Shown here: positions 1,906 to 35,286 of the stretch, piece by piece
Layout of the letters: every line of letters begins with the position of its first letter
Numbering within the stretch: the stretch's first letter is position 1
Assembly (NCBI GenBank): GCA_021732785.1
Contig: JAKFUG010000023.1
Coordinates: 1-64,000 of the forward strand
Direction of reading: 5' to 3'
From: Planctomycetaceae bacterium
Lineage (GTDB): Bacteria > Planctomycetota > Planctomycetia > Planctomycetales > Planctomycetaceae
Length of the DNA stretch: 64,000 nucleotides
The notes under the pieces: generated by a model
The model's database searches: none
What the model was told of the DNA's origin: nothing
What the model saw: only the letters and a program-made list of their open reading frames with translations
Program-made: the position numbers and the translations under genes

Positions 1906-3407
1906 TGAGTCTTCCAAGGTCCTTGTACGGGAACCAGCACCCCGGCTGCTCCGAAGCAGCCGGGGTGCTTCCCTCGTCGACAAACACGTTCTTGCGCGAC
2001 ATCACCCGGCGGCATTTCTTTCAGGATTGCCGCGTTGGTGTCGGGGCGATGGCGCTCGCGTCGCTGATGCAACCGTCGGTGAAGGCAAACGAAGCACCGG
2101 GGTTTGTGACGGACAGTCGCGGGCTGCATCATGCGCCGAAGGCGAAGGCTGTCATTTTCATGTTCATGGCGGGGGGGCCGAGTCCGCTCGAACTGTTCGA
2201 TGACAAGCCGAAGCTCCGCGAACTGCACGGGCAGGTGATCCCCGAGTCCTACGTGGCGGGCAAGCGGTTTGCGTTCATCAAGCGCGATGCCAAGCTCCTG
2301 GGGTCGGTCCGCAAGTTCGCGAAGCACGGGCAATGCGGGGCGGAAGTCAGCGAACTACTGCCGCATTTCTCGCAGATTGTCGATGATGTCTGCATCGTGA
2401 AATCGATGGCGACCGATGTCTTCAACCACGGCCCGGCGAAGCTCTTCGTCAACACCGGGTCGCCGCAATTCATGGGGCGGCCGTCGATGGGGGCATGGGT
2501 CACTTACGGCATCGGCACCGAAGCGGACGATCTACCCGGCTTCGTCGTCCTGCAATCGGGTCCCCGGGGTCCACGCGGCGGCGCTCCACTATGGGCGAGC
2601 GGCTTTCTGCCGACGAATTACCAGGGGGTGCCGTTGCGGTCGGGGAAGGAACCGATCCTCAATCTGTCGAATCCGCCGGGGATCAATGCCGACCGGCAGC
2701 GTGAGTTCATCGGCGCGGTGAACGATCTCAATGCGTTGCATCTCGGCGAACAGCACGACCCGGAAATCGCCACGCGGATTGCCCAGTACGAAATGGCGTA
2801 CCGCATGCAGACCAGTGCCCCGGAACTGATGGACCTCTCCGGCGAAACGCAGGCCACGCTCGATCTGTACGGGGCGACGCCCGGCAAACCGTCGTTCGCG
2901 AACAACTGCCTGCTCGCCCGGCGGCTCGTCGAACGGGGCTCCCGCTTCGTGCAGCTCTATCACACCGACTGGGACCATCACGGCAACCCCGGCACCGAAC
3001 TGGGCAAGTCGCTCGATGACCGCTGCAAGGAAGTCGACCAGGCCAGCGCGGCGCTCGTCGCGGACCTCAAACAGCGCGGCATGCTGGATGAAACCATCGT
3101 CGTCTGGGGCGGCGAATTCGGCCGCACGCCGCAGGGCGAACCGCGCGATCTGATGGGCCGCGATCATCACATTGAAGCCTACACCATGTGGATGGCCGGC
3201 GGCGGTTTCAAAGCCGGAGCCACCATCGGCGAGACCGACGAGATCGGTTATTACACGGTGAAGGACAAGGTTCACGTCCACGATCTACAAGCGACGATTC
3301 TGCACCAACTCGGCATCGACCATCTGCAACTCGTCTACAAGTTCCAGGGCCGCAATTACCGTTTGACCGACGTGCATGGAGAAGTCGCAACGAAGTTACT
3401 CGCCTGA
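1902..3407 (+). CDS. DUF1501 domain protein (twin-arginine exported)
   Basis: About 500 residues. It has a twin-arginine signal (ITRRHFFQDC followed by a hydrophobic stretch), the MFMAGGPSPLELFD opening of DUF1501, and the C-terminal GEFGRTPQGEPRD and GRDHH motifs of this alkaline-phosphatase/sulfatase-fold family. Start choice is uncertain. GTG 1902 has GGAGG at 1890-1894 with 7-base spacing and overlaps the Uma2 stop, so coupled translation is plausible. That start puts about 35 residues, including a perfect hairpin (1937-1968), before the RR motif. A TTG at 1992 would give a normal Tat leader. It forms a set with the DUF1553 gene at the window start. Catalytic activity is unproven. Confidence 0.9.
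   Translation: MMSLPRSLYGNQHPGCSEAAGVLPSSTNTFLRDITRRHFFQDCRVGVGAMALASLMQPSVKANEAPGFVTDSRGLHHAPKAKAVIFMFMAGGPSPLELFDDKPKLRELHGQVIPESYVAGKRFAFIKRDAKLLGSVRKFAKHGQCGAEVSELLPHFSQIVDDVCIVKSMATDVFNHGPAKLFVNTGSPQFMGRPSMGAWVTYGIGTEADDLPGFVVLQSGPRGPRGGAPLWASGFLPTNYQGVPLRSGKEPILNLSNPPGINADRQREFIGAVNDLNALHLGEQHDPEIATRIAQYEMAYRMQTSAPELMDLSGETQATLDLYGATPGKPSFANNCLLARRLVERGSRFVQLYHTDWDHHGNPGTELGKSLDDRCKEVDQASAALVADLKQRGMLDETIVVWGGEFGRTPQGEPRDLMGRDHHIEAYTMWMAGGGFKAGATIGETDEIGYYTVKDKVHVHDLQATILHQLGIDHLQLVYKFQGRNYRLTDVHGEVATKLLA
1937..1968. repeat. Perfect 13-bp hairpin near the 5' end of the DUF1501 gene
   Basis: GCACCCCGGCTGC (1937-1949) pairs exactly with GCAGCCGGGGTGC (1956-1968) around a TCCGAA loop. It resembles the intergenic hairpins elsewhere in the window, so it may be a mobile palindromic element or a transcription hairpin captured in the reading frame. 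If the GTG at 1902 is used it is translated as part of an extended leader. Confidence 0.8.
3363..3407 (+). repeat. First copy of a 45-bp duplicated DUF1501 3' end
   Basis: The last 15 codons (including stop) of the DUF1501 gene, encoding LTDVHGEVATKLLA. The core GACGTGCATGGAGAAGTC recurs at 4219-4236 after the HNH gene, giving a direct repeat 850 bp apart. Confidence 0.85.
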
Positions 3408-31177: not shown

Positions 31178-32227
31178 TTAGAAGTCGCCGGTCTGTTCGC
31201 CATCGGCCCGGCTCATCAGGCGGCGGATGGTGTTGAAGTCGGTGTTTTCGCTGATGAAGCGGACCGTGCCGTCGCCCATCAGAGCATGCAGGCCCCCGAC
31301 GTGCATCGAAAACGGTTCATCGTTCGGGCCGCAATTGTTGGTCGTCCACGGGCAGGTGCCCGGGCCGCCGGTCGGCGTTTTGTTGTTGTTGAAGATAGCG
31401 CCGCGGTTCGCCGGCGGACCCGAGACACCCGAGCCACTGTCCGGATCGGCCCAGCGGCCGGGAGCCGAACTGCCCGTGCCGTTGGCACCTTGCGCGACAT
31501 CGACACCGTTCATGACCGGAGCGGTAGCCGACCATCCCCCGGTAGTGGTGGTCAACGGCCCAAAAACCAGGCCCAGCGTGTACGAGCCCACAACCTGAGT
31601 CACCTTGCCGTTCGATTCCACGATGGCAATCGTATTGCTCGTGCCGTCGGTGCAGGCCGCAATGGCGTTGTGGAAGCCGAGGAGCGAGTCGCGATCCCAG
31701 GTCGTATCGAGTTTCTGACGAGCGTTGTTGCTGTCGATGTCGGTGTACGCGATCGGCATGTAGTCGGTCAGACCATAACCGAGGGAATCGGCCGCGCCAC
31801 CGGGGTTGCTGGGGCAAAGAATGGCCGTGACCTTGGTCTTGGCAGCCGCGGCATTCGTCGAGTTCAACGAATTCGTGTAGTGGAAGCTGGGGTTAAACTG
31901 GTTGTAGAGCGGTGCCTGATCGAAGTACGGCAGCATCTGGAAGAACGTCGATGTCGGAGTGAACCGACGATCATAGGGGCTCGTACGGCGGTCCGTGAAT
32001 TCCCCTGCGGACGGGAACTTCGTGTAGGTCGATTCGTAATTGAAGAGCGCCAGGCCCATCTGCTTCATGTTGTTTTTGCACTGCGTGCGACGGGCGGCTT
32101 CACGGGCCTGTTGCACGGCGGGCAAAAGCAGGGCGATGAGGATGGCGATGATCGCAATCACCACCAAAAGCTCGATCAGCGTGAAGCCACGCCGCGAACT
32201 ACGGGACGGAGAAGAAACGAAAGACAT
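31178..32227 (-). CDS. DUF1559 prepilin-like protein, copy 2
   Basis: 349 residues from ATG 32227 (GGAG upstream). The N-terminus has the type IV pilin/pseudopilin methylation site [19 protein letters not shown], followed by the DUF1559 domain and the C-terminal H-x9-DG motif ([12 protein letters not shown]). Processed by a prepilin peptidase and probably exposed at the surface. It is a close tandem paralogue of the gene at 32623. The family is greatly expanded in planctomycetes; no molecular function is known. Confidence 0.95.
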
Positions 32228-32531
32228 GGACAAAACTCCAGAAGCCGGCACAGTTGCCGCACGAAAAAAGGAACCGCTAACAGTCGTTGTCAGGACGCTC
32301 CGACACGACGAGTCCCTTGAAGGCATGAAGGATAGCCAGCAATTGTGAATAAATTATGAACGACGCCTGGAAGTTGCGTAATGAGGGCTTTGCCCCACGT
32401 CTACGTTTTCATCGGACGGTTTCGCGGGAAAGAGACGCGGCCTATGCCGCCGCGCCGCTCATTCTTTCTTAGAAAACCAACATTTTCCGACAATTGGGAT
32501 TGCAAGTGACTCGCGGCTGTCCAAATGAAAA

Positions 32532-32622: not shown

Positions 32623-33669
32623 TTAGAAGTCGCCGGTCTGCTCCCCTTCCGCACGGCCCATGAGGCGGCGGAGCGTGTTGAAGTCGGTGTTTTCCGAGAT
32701 GAAGCGGACGGTGCCATCGCCCATGAGGGCGTGAACGCCACCGACGTGCAACGAGAACGGTTCATCGTTCGGGCCGCAGTTGTTGGTCGTCCACGGGCAG
32801 GTGCCCGGGCCGCCGGTCGGAGTCTTGTTGTTGTTGATGATCGGTCCGCGATTGGCCGGAGGACCGGACACGCCCGAGCCGCTATCCGGATCGGCCCAAC
32901 GGCCCGGAGCCGAACTACTGGTTCCATTGGCACCCTGAGCCGTATCGGCACCGTCCATCAACGGAGCCGTTGCCGACCAACCCGCCTGGGTTGGATTTAA
33001 CGGTCCAAAGACCAGGCCGAGCGTATAGGACCCGGTGACGGTGGTCTGCTTGCCCGCGTCTTCGATGATGGCGATGGTATTGCTGGTCCCGTCGGTGCAG
33101 GCCGAAATGGCATTGTGGAAACCGAGGAGCGAATCGCGATCCCAGGTGGTGCTCAGTTTCTGACGGTTGTTGGTGTCGTCGATGTCGGTGTAGGCAATCG
33201 GCATGTAGTCGGTGAGGCCGTAGCCCTGGGGATCAGCCGGAGTGTTGGCGTTGCTCGGGCAGAGGAACGCGGTGATCTTCGTCCGGGCGGCCGCCGCATT
33301 CGTCGAGTTCAGCGAGTTCGTGTAATGGTAGGTGAGGGTGAAGCTGTTGTAGAGCGGTGCCTGATCGATGAACGGCAGGCATTGGGTGAAGGTCGACGTC
33401 GGGGTGAACCGACGGTCGTAGGTGCCAGCGCGACGATCAGTGAATTCCCCGGCCGACGGGAACTTGGTGAAGGTCGACTCGTAGTTGTGGAGCGCCAAGC
33501 CCAACTGCTTCATGTTGTTTTTGCACTGGGTGCGGCGGGCGGCTTCACGGGCTTGCTGCACCGCGGGCAAAAGCAGCGCGATGAGGATGGCGATGATCGC
33601 AATCACCACCAGGAGTTCGATCAACGTGAAACCACGTCGCGAACCACGGACTGGGGAAGGAGATACCAT
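32623..33669 (-). CDS. DUF1559 prepilin-like protein, copy 1
   Basis: 348 residues from ATG 33669. Same plan as its neighbour: [19 protein letters not shown] at the N-terminus, [32 protein letters not shown] near the end. Most positions are identical with the downstream copy, including the last 90 residues, so this is a recent tandem duplication or one maintained by gene conversion. Each copy has its own 3' hairpin and leader, so they may be separately expressed. Confidence 0.95.
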
Positions 33670-33902
33670 GAATACAAACTCCGAGGACGAAGATCGCACG
33701 CCTCTTGCGGGAACCGTTTGTAACGACTGCGAGACACACCTCGACGGTCGCAGTTCCTGTGGGTCGTACGGTATCGCCGAGTTGTGAAGAAACGACGAAG
33801 GCTTCTGCAACTTTGCATGAAGACGGCGAAGTCAGAACGGCACGATTTCGCGGAGAATTTCGTGCGCACGCTTCCATCCCGTCGCCCCGACCGACGACGA
33901 TT

Positions 33903-34151
33903 TCAGGATGAATACTCGGCCAGACCGGGAGGGACTTCGCGACGAAGAATCACGTTGGCCGGCTGGTCATTATTTCGGACGGCCGTACGAACAGCCTCCA
34001 GAACCGCTTCCTCATCGTCCGCCGGTGTCGGACCGACGTAGACCTGAATCGCATTCTGCGACGCTTTCACGCCCAGTCCATGAATGCCGCCCTTGCCGAG
34101 GAACACCATTCGCAGCTGCTCTTTGAGAGTCCGCAAGTCGTCCAACGGCAT
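33903..34151 (-). CDS. Small protein, possible stand-alone relative of the protease N-domain
   Basis: 82 residues from ATG 34151, with AGGA upstream, 13 bp after the serine protease stop on the same strand. It reads GIHGLGVKASQNAIQVYVGP, then an acidic helix and VILRREVPPG. The protease N-terminal region has a similar order (VHAVGVGRKFV, VRLYVRQKL, GIPTDVVEAP). I infer that the small protein may have the same fold and could act as a propeptide-like partner or inhibitor. No named family is recognised. Confidence 0.7.
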   Translation of the reverse strand: MPLDDLRTLKEQLRMVFLGKGGIHGLGVKASQNAIQVYVGPTPADDEEAVLEAVRTAVRNNDQPANVILRREVPPGLAEYSS

Positions 34152-34164
34152 GATTTGATTCCTT

Positions 34165-35286
34165 TCACAACAGTTCGACCTCTAACAATTGTAGCACGTC
34201 GCTGAGGCGGCTGGCGATTCCGTAACTGCCATCGGGCGGACAGGCGAAAAAGAGTCCGATCGCCTGTTGCGAATCTCGTTCGACGACGAGCGCGCCACTA
34301 TCGCCTGGCAGGGCAAAGGCCGGATGCGACGAAGTCCGGGCAATGCGGATCTGATTCGTGAACAACGCCCACTGAGACGGATCGTTATGATCCATCTGAA
34401 TGGTGACATCGAACGAAATGTCGTCGATTTGCCCCTCCGTATAACCCGTCGTGCGCCCATGTTTTCTCACAAACAGGTCGTCTTGCGGATCGGCGACGCC
34501 GCTCACAGCCCCGATGGAACAGATCTCGGTCGTGAAATTTCCCTCGTTGCTCACGGCCGCGATCGCGGCATCAACCGCGTTGGCGGGGCCGCCCAATTGA
34601 ATCGGATGGAATCGGGAAAGCTCGGCGACTTTATCAGCAGCGGTCCCTCCATCCAATCGCCCCGGCTGATCAAGTTCATCCCCCTCCACGCCGCGGTTGG
34701 TATCCGCAAAAACGTGATTGTTGCTGAGAAGATACGTCGTCTCGGGATCGTCTCCGTCACGTGTCGACCGGCAGAAATATCCCAGCGTGCCCGCGGTGAT
34801 GTTAAAGTGTCCTATACTGATTCCCGCCACGAAGGGACGCTGTCGTTGTTGCCGTTGTGACGTGCAGGCCGGCACCGCCTGCGCAAGGGAAGCCACCGCA
34901 GCGGCAACCTTGGACGCCGGGCTGGCCACGGCACCCGCCACTCGTGACTTCGTCCCCTTCTTTTTTGCCGCAAAATAGGCCCGCGGCGCTTCCACCACGT
35001 CGGTCGGGATTCCGTCAATCGCTTTCGGCAAGCGGTCAATGGGAGCCAGCATCGTCTCGGCTAATTTTTGCCGGACGTAAAGACGCACACAGAAATCGCC
35101 CACCGGCTTCCCTTCCACAAACTTACGGCCCACACCTACCGCATGCACATTGCGATCGGCGTGGGTAATCGCCTCCCGCACCGAGAGGGTCGCTTCCAGA
35201 CCCGCGGCAGCCACCAGCAGCGATGGTCGCAGGAACTGAGCACTCATCAATCGCTTGACGGCCATTAAGTCATTCAGGTTTGACAT
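34165..35286 (-). CDS. Trypsin-like serine protease, Nal1-type
   Basis: 373 residues. N-terminal domain (about 25-105), Ala/Lys-rich linker (105-150), then a chymotrypsin-fold protease. His191 in LLSNNHVFAD, Asp239 in NAVDAAIAA and Ser330 in LPGDSGALV form the expected triad. No signal peptide, so likely cytoplasmic. It resembles bacterial relatives of the plant NAL1 protease, with the typical HGRTTGYTEG segment. The small gene 13 bp downstream is probably co-expressed. The protein substrate is unknown. Confidence 0.87.
   Translation of the reverse strand: MSNLNDLMAVKRLMSAQFLRPSLLVAAAGLEATLSVREAITHADRNVHAVGVGRKFVEGKPVGDFCVRLYVRQKLAETMLAPIDRLPKAIDGIPTDVVEAPRAYFAAKKKGTKSRVAGAVASPASKVAAAVASLAQAVPACTSQRQQRQRPFVAGISIGHFNITAGTLGYFCRSTRDGDDPETTYLLSNNHVFADTNRGVEGDELDQPGRLDGGTAADKVAELSRFHPIQLGGPANAVDAAIAAVSNEGNFTTEICSIGAVSGVADPQDDLFVRKHGRTTGYTEGQIDDISFDVTIQMDHNDPSQWALFTNQIRIARTSSHPAFALPGDSGALVVERDSQQAIGLFFACPPDGSYGIASRLSDVLQLLEVELL

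Follow-up and report, generated by a model that had tools for sequence, protein, structure and literature searches.

The locus examined here raises the question of what a gene for a protein of only 82 residues does directly behind the gene of a serine protease, and whether that protein is kin to the protease's own N-terminal domain. Both genes lie on the minus strand of the window, the whole 64,000-nucleotide stretch of DNA that was analysed, which belongs to a planctomycete genome of 6.69 Mb. The protease P0001 (373 residues, 34165–35286) and the small protein P0002 (33903–34151) are separated by a gap of 13 bp (34152–34164), an arrangement that the initial annotation had read correctly from the open reading frames. 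The gap holds the sequence AAGGA (34160–34164) directly after the TGA of the protease and eight bases before the ATG of P0002; it is a plausible candidate ribosome site, and translational coupling of the two genes is plausible from the same gap sequence. P0001 is divided into an N-terminal domain (residues ~1–104, 34975–35286), delimited by AF2 secondary structure and by a profile match of the small-protein family, a linker that is mostly of low confidence (residues ~105–150, 34837–34974; pLDDT 44–72 in blocks of residues 101–140), and a catalytic domain (residues ~151–373, 34168–34836), identified by its catalytic triad and by its likeness to streptogrisin B (3sgb_E). The second-best match of P0001 in its own genome has an E value of 0.36.

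P0001 had been described from its sequence as a Nal1-like protease with the triad His191, Asp239 and Ser330, and this description holds. The three residues (codons at 34714–34716, 34570–34572 and 34297–34299, respectively) do not vary across the 51 aligned protease sequences (A7), and the triad is intact. The AF2 model of P0001 (pLDDT 89.5, pTM 0.89) superposes on rice NAL1 (8pmi_B) with Z 29.7 and rmsd 3.1 over 302 residues at 20% identity; the match covers the whole chain, model residues 1–373 corresponding to 90–444 of 8pmi_B, with N-domain and catalytic domain in the NAL1 arrangement. The catalytic domain by itself matches streptogrisin B with Z 20.7 and rmsd 1.6 over 181 residues. When the profile of the 51 proteases is compared with the PDB, the rice NAL1 structures are reached at a best E of 1.2e-18 and streptogrisin B at 1.1e-8. 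P0001 is called NAL1-type here because of these profile matches and the structure matches to NAL1, over the whole chain, and to streptogrisin B. Plant NAL1 (PDB 7y77, 8pmi, 8has and others; Pfam NAL1_N and Nal1_C) has the same two-domain layout along the whole chain, but P0001 stays under the gathering scores of both Pfam families (14.8 versus 27 bits for NAL1_N, 14.0 versus 26.1 bits for Nal1_C), and its matches to Trypsin_2 and Peptidase_S64 are likewise weak and under cut-off. Among the 51 members of A7, 20 match NAL1_N and 30 match Nal1_C at E≤0.001. The model and the profiles thus support P0001 as NAL1-type by predicted structure and by profile, not as a member of the Pfam NAL1_N and Nal1_C families. 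Its N-domain is modelled with a helix at residues 4–28 and strands at 47–57, 60–71 and 93–99.

The AF2 model of P0002 (pLDDT 88.4, pTM 0.76) places most of the 82 residues in one compact, high-confidence domain, with helices at residues 3–17 and 47–59 and strands at 23–29, 34–39 and 66–71. The resulting order is helix-strand-strand-helix-strand, that of the P0001 N-domain helix-short helix-strand-strand-short turns-strand, and the likeness of the two models is limited to this agreeing order of elements. A Foldseek search with the P0002 model returns no match at E≤0.001; rice NAL1 is not among the 50 structure rows listed for the model, which excludes nothing. P0002 has no Pfam family at E≤10, and nothing is found for it in NCBIfam or PADLOC. 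That P0002 mirrors the N-domain of the adjacent protease had been claimed in the initial annotation, and on the sequence of the window alone the claim is weak: a BLASTP comparison of P0001 with P0002 leaves the resemblance invisible (E 2.7). As a kinship between families it nevertheless stands when profiles are compared. A profile of 47 small proteins (A6), which includes P0002 and contains no protease row, finds exactly two matches in the window genome at E≤0.001, P0002 itself and the N-domain of P0001 (E 4.7e-6). With hhalign, the 47 small proteins align to the N-domain of the 51 proteases at E 9.6e-17, and the three closest small proteins alone match the proteases at E 1.3e-4 by profile comparison.

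A leave-clade-out comparison points the same way. With the window's clade of eight removed, a model built from the 60 other small proteins recovers the whole clade at E≤0.05 (range 8e-7 to 0.043; P0002 at 0.019). The eight small proteins of the clade match the N-domains of proteases outside it at E 3.3e-7, while the best of 100 column-shuffled N-domain profiles gives E 0.0047. These profile comparisons support P0002 as a homologue of the N-domain family. A few stand-alone partners are visible to Pfam directly: those of L042 (34.4 bits) and L091 (31.2 bits) exceed the NAL1_N cut-off of 27. Of the 47 proteins in A6, two match NAL1_N at E≤0.1 and the remaining Pfam matches are of single members; in NCBIfam, the matches are of single members to ten unrelated families, none better than E 0.006. 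This small family of ~75 residues is nearly invisible to Pfam and NCBIfam and has no name there. The three-row small-protein model A3 matches eight of 392 genomes of the phylum at E≤0.01, the window's own and seven at 0.002–0.01. A match of P0002 in genome G015 (E 0.0045) was taken as chance, there being no protease relative among the ORFs of at least 150 residues in that locus.

The further idea of a separate copy of the protease's own N-domain did not survive the comparison. The small proteins of the clade match the clade's own N-domains at E 0.028 only, and an N-domain model built without the clade finds P0002 at E 3 only; these two values rule out a recent copy of the P0001 N-domain, and because of them P0002 is read, from sequence comparison, as an old, separately evolving paralogue of the N-domain family. 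When each small protein is compared with all N-domains, its own N-domain has a median rank of 15 of 64 and comes first in five of 64 cases, so recent duplication is not the rule. A joint tree of small proteins and N-domains, resting on 76 columns, needs 10 label changes versus 43 in shuffles and keeps the small proteins mostly apart from the N-domains; on these 76 columns a tree in which the small proteins form one clade is not rejected (p-AU 0.095). In the same tree the small protein of L091 is nearest its own N-domain, and copying or conversion may have occurred in single lineages such as this one.

A search for the pair in other genomes had been proposed in the initial annotation, and it finds the linkage conserved. 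A scan of the genome_contigs collection (one genome per species, 84,980 species) for two peptide patterns taken from the three closest proteases yielded 156 protease relatives; the best 80 of these 156, together with 29 further loci (best matches, same-gene duplicates dropped), give 110 proteases in 109 loci, the near-duplicates L047/L048 and L050/L053 being kept. Among them is the locus of Planctomycetes bacterium Pan216 (G063, L035), of the same class as the window genome; a protease match at E≤1e-4 was obtained in 64 of 397 genomes drawn from that class. The N-domain is present in 109 of the 110 protease relatives, with or without a partner, the exception being the C-terminal fragment in L041. 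Across the 109 loci, 71 of 5372 non-protease ORFs of at least 40 residues match the N-domain or small-protein models at E≤0.01, and 65 of the 71 share the strand of a protease and have their end no more than 700 bp downstream of its stop. Three of the other six are further downstream (a second protease in L021, and genes ~1 kb away in L043 and L076), one is convergent, and two apparently upstream matches are pieces of the frame-broken L041 protease. Because the loci were chosen by protease similarity, the weight rests on the comparison of the downstream position with the rest of the same loci. Where the sequence extends 400 bp or more beyond the protease gene (101 proteases), a partner is present at E≤0.01 in 64 cases and more weakly in three others; a looser count gives 68 of 110. 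The median gap is 21 bp, with 11 overlaps, in the 52 of 68 pairs whose domain starts within 25 residues of the ORF start. The order of protease followed by small gene is conserved across phyla.

The arrangement has exceptions and variants. Of the 97 proteases scored, 32 have no adjacent same-strand partner; the small protein is therefore no constant companion of the protease. In L018 the small gene (2228–2503, minus strand) is convergent with the protease gene and does not follow it on the same strand. In L021 (genome G170, with seven matches) a protease, the small gene and another related ORF follow one another in tandem, with the small gene in the middle. A protease closely related to that of the window, from a Cytophagaceae bin (L041, 3956–5043), is split into two frames, which may be an assembly error, and its small partner is intact. 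An orphan N-domain-like protein is encoded in genome G003 (L177, 1414–1725, plus strand; E 0.001); no protease relative was found among the ORFs of this 3.2-kb locus, and none at E≤1e-4 among the matches listed for the genome. Clustering of ORFs of at least 80 residues in L035–L114 gave no widely shared third gene beside the pairs: the largest cluster (seven loci) is made up of minus-strand frames that overlap the protease and small genes, and the remaining clusters cover at most five loci, several of them among close relatives (five in L051, L057, L063, L074 and L091; four in L036, L038, L070 and L075). C-terminal extensions of at least 40 residues occur in four of 65 proteases with a partner and in 13 of 32 without (Fisher 7e-5, kinship ignored); such extended proteases, mostly lacking the small partner, include L071, L085, L093, L096, L101, L110, L111 and L114.

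A tree of the catalytic domain was built from 107 rows (L041, L048 and L053 dropped), of which 65 have a partner, 32 have none, two have a distant partner and eight lie at contig ends and are unscored. The partner label needs 19 changes on this tree, against a shuffled mean of 28 to 29. Partners occur in 13 labelled phyla, archaea included, as well as in candidate division KSB1: Planctomycetota, Pseudomonadota, Myxococcota, Bacteroidota, Chloroflexota, Actinomycetota, Spirochaetota, Ignavibacteriota, Gemmatimonadota, Nitrospirota, Fibrobacterota, Bathyarchaeota and Methanobacteriota (many of the rows come from metagenome bins, and single phylum labels may be wrong). The partner is absent from all five Bacillota rows and from the four scored Cellulomonas rows. 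The window's clade (eight rows, SH-aLRT 99) has the pair in seven of its eight rows even though its hosts belong to Planctomycetota, Pseudomonadota and Myxococcota, which suggests that protease and small gene travel together between hosts.

The divergence of the protease and that of the small gene are correlated. For 64 of the 68 pairs (L041, L048, L053 and L094 dropped), pairwise distances correlate at r 0.74 between small protein and catalytic domain, 0.64 between small protein and N-domain, and 0.69 between N-domain and catalytic domain, against maxima of 0.12, 0.15 and 0.16, respectively, in 1000 label shuffles, a null that contains no species tree. Given the catalytic domain, the partial correlation of small protein with N-domain is 0.25. 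That the window's clade crosses phyla argues against host phylogeny alone as the source of the correlation. In the joint alignment of the 64 pairs, inspected by eye, several clades show one partner in which the motif IP....G.P ahead of the last strand is absent or degraded: on the protease side in L008, L010–L015, L019, L050, L067, L016, L017 and L079, and on the small side in the window pair, L007, L035–L039, L047 and L030. No pair was seen with loss of the whole motif in both partners, and single residues vary, as in L010; the pattern was noticed post hoc and concerns a handful of clades.

For export signals a crude hydropathy rule was applied, its cut-off chosen after the values were seen. 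Under this rule an export-like start is found in 19 of the 64 proteases, and an export-like small protein occurs in five of these 19 pairs (L077, L083, L086, L097 and L098) versus none of the other 45 (Fisher p 0.0015, kinship ignored). An export-like small protein beside a protease that is not export-like does not occur among the 64 pairs, in keeping with a partner that meets the protease. Of the 19 export-like proteases, 14 have a small protein without an export signal; a seemingly cytoplasmic location of these small proteins fits a pre-export guard or a folding helper rather than an extracellular inhibitor. By the same rule, neither P0001 nor P0002 has an export-like start.

The statement in the initial annotation that no such pair had been described is right for NAL1-type proteases in the literature searched, and too broad as a general statement, since the general kind, a protease with a free-standing relative of its N-terminal domain encoded next to it, is already known for cysteine proteases and subtilases. 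According to one report, the gene of the C10 cysteine protease SpeB adjoins that of its specific inhibitor Spi, an analogue of the propeptide (PMC2873492). The likeness to the present pair lies in a protease beside a gene for a relative of its own N-terminal region, and the difference in the protease, which is a cysteine protease. The SpeB propeptide is removed on maturation, and the folds differ from those of P0001 and P0002. In Plasmodium, the stand-alone propeptide-like protein SUB1-ProM is encoded in a locus of subtilisin-like genes and is a potent inhibitor of SUB1 (PMC6993865). It resembles P0002 as a stand-alone pro-domain-like protein encoded beside its protease class, but SUB1 is an S8 subtilase of a single eukaryotic genus, whereas P0001 is S1-type with relatives in many prokaryotic phyla. 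P0002 shares with Spi and SUB1-ProM the trait of being a free-standing protein, encoded adjacent to a protease and related to the N-terminal domain of that protease.

Other neighbours of proteases are less alike. Staphostatins and Bfi proteins are encoded by small inhibitor genes that lie beside protease genes and are co-transcribed with them, inhibition by Bfi being predicted (PMC2873492). Staphostatins, unlike P0002, are lipocalin-like and unrelated to any protease domain; they act on cysteine proteases. Trypco1 and Trypco2 are described in PMC7159879 as trypsin-co-occurring domains of conflict systems, encoded beside trypsin-like peptidases. They belong to multi-gene systems, whereas pairs of the P0001 type have no widely shared third gene. 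In Pfam, which we take to contain models of both domains, neither is matched by any of the 47 members of A6. The word NAL1 is absent from PMC8195603 and from PMC7159879. Within the literature searched, largely without subscription papers, no description of a small partner of a bacterial NAL1-like protease and no paper on the regulation of prokaryotic NAL1 relatives was found. Homology to the alpha-lytic pro-region (PF02983) was considered; it is tempting by fold, by position and by the streptogrisin-like catalytic domain, but profiles give no support, hhalign E values being 0.035 for the small family, 0.097 for A3, 0.68 for the N-domain and 0.12 for the window's clade. The P0002 model matches the alpha-lytic pro-region 3pro_C with Z 6.3 and rmsd 3.0 over 67 residues, tied with many rows, and this apparent match of fold is treated as a lead. 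A foldase role would have gained support from such homology, for which the best E is 0.035.

The recurring two-gene arrangement suggests that the small protein controls the protease. The initial annotation had ventured that it could be a chaperone, a substrate mimic or an inhibitor, and these roles stay hypothetical. We propose, with a confidence that falls a little short of even, that the two genes form a module in which a NAL1-type protease with an intact triad is served by P0002 as a trans-acting, pro-domain-like regulator, an inhibitor and/or a folding helper. P0002 would bind its own protease at the site of the N-domain, either on the catalytic domain or by exchange with the N-domain of another protomer, and would help the catalytic domain to fold and/or keep it inactive until assembly, export or activation. 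Where the protease is exported and the small protein is not, the cytoplasm would be protected. The mode of action would resemble that of SpeB-Spi or SUB1-ProM without membership of those families, and inhibition by the small protein is plausible because of these precedents in other protease classes. A wider version, in which an ancient bacterial and archaeal module moves between phyla as a unit and its stand-alone N-domain, co-diverged with the catalytic domain, controls a NAL1-family protease as a pro-domain in trans, is put forward tentatively, with somewhat more doubt than assent.

Several findings limit the regulator reading and give room to others. The N-domain is part of the solved NAL1 chains (the match to residues 90–444), which speaks against a pro-peptide that is simply removed and favours a structural role. 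This gives real weight to the main rival, in which N-domains oligomerise and P0002, as an additional N-domain, completes, caps or tunes the oligomer and leaves the active site unblocked. The near-universal N-domain of the 110 relatives, retained whether or not a partner is present, also looks structural; but a subunit does not explain why the partner is missing for 32 of 97 proteases, and it predicts a fixed interface and stoichiometry. We regard this rival as unlikely, though a serious contender. The proteases without a partner count against a regulator as well, as does the orphan small gene in G003. It is distinctly improbable that P0002 is a substrate, adaptor or decoy, cut by the protease or bringing substrates to it. 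The small gene is adjacent and co-oriented, and pro-domains are natural ligands of their proteases, as such a role would have it, but a mere substrate need not belong to the N-domain family, and the 82 residues of P0002 show no extra binding module in the model.

A fortuitous neighbour, unrelated to the protease and resembling its N-domain by chance in a short beta-hairpin motif, might be read from the BLASTP E of 2.7, the lack of a Pfam or NCBIfam family, the empty Foldseek search at E≤0.001 and the E of 0.028 against the clade's own N-domains. Against it stand the position of 65 of the 71 matches, which follow the protease directly on its strand, the own-genome search that returned P0002 and the adjacent N-domain only, and the leave-clade-out match measured against 100 shuffled controls. 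Chance likeness is refuted as far as sequence can refute it, and we give it almost no credence.

If the regulator reading is right, the principle of the propeptide mimic represented by Spi and SUB1-ProM extends to S1-type serine proteases, and a family of ~75 residues gains a testable role. In rice, NAL1 is described as a gene of key importance for photosynthesis and plant architecture (PMC11647526). A small partner that is conserved and adjacent offers a direct handle on the regulation of NAL1-type proteases, a single short gene that can be deleted or co-expressed, and if the reading is true it may be asked whether a partner of this sort once belonged, or still belongs, to plant NAL1. Just downstream of the P0001 and P0002 pair in the window, two adjoining minus-strand genes (31178–32326 and 32623–33810) encode proteins that are similar to each other and that presumably have a prepilin-like start.
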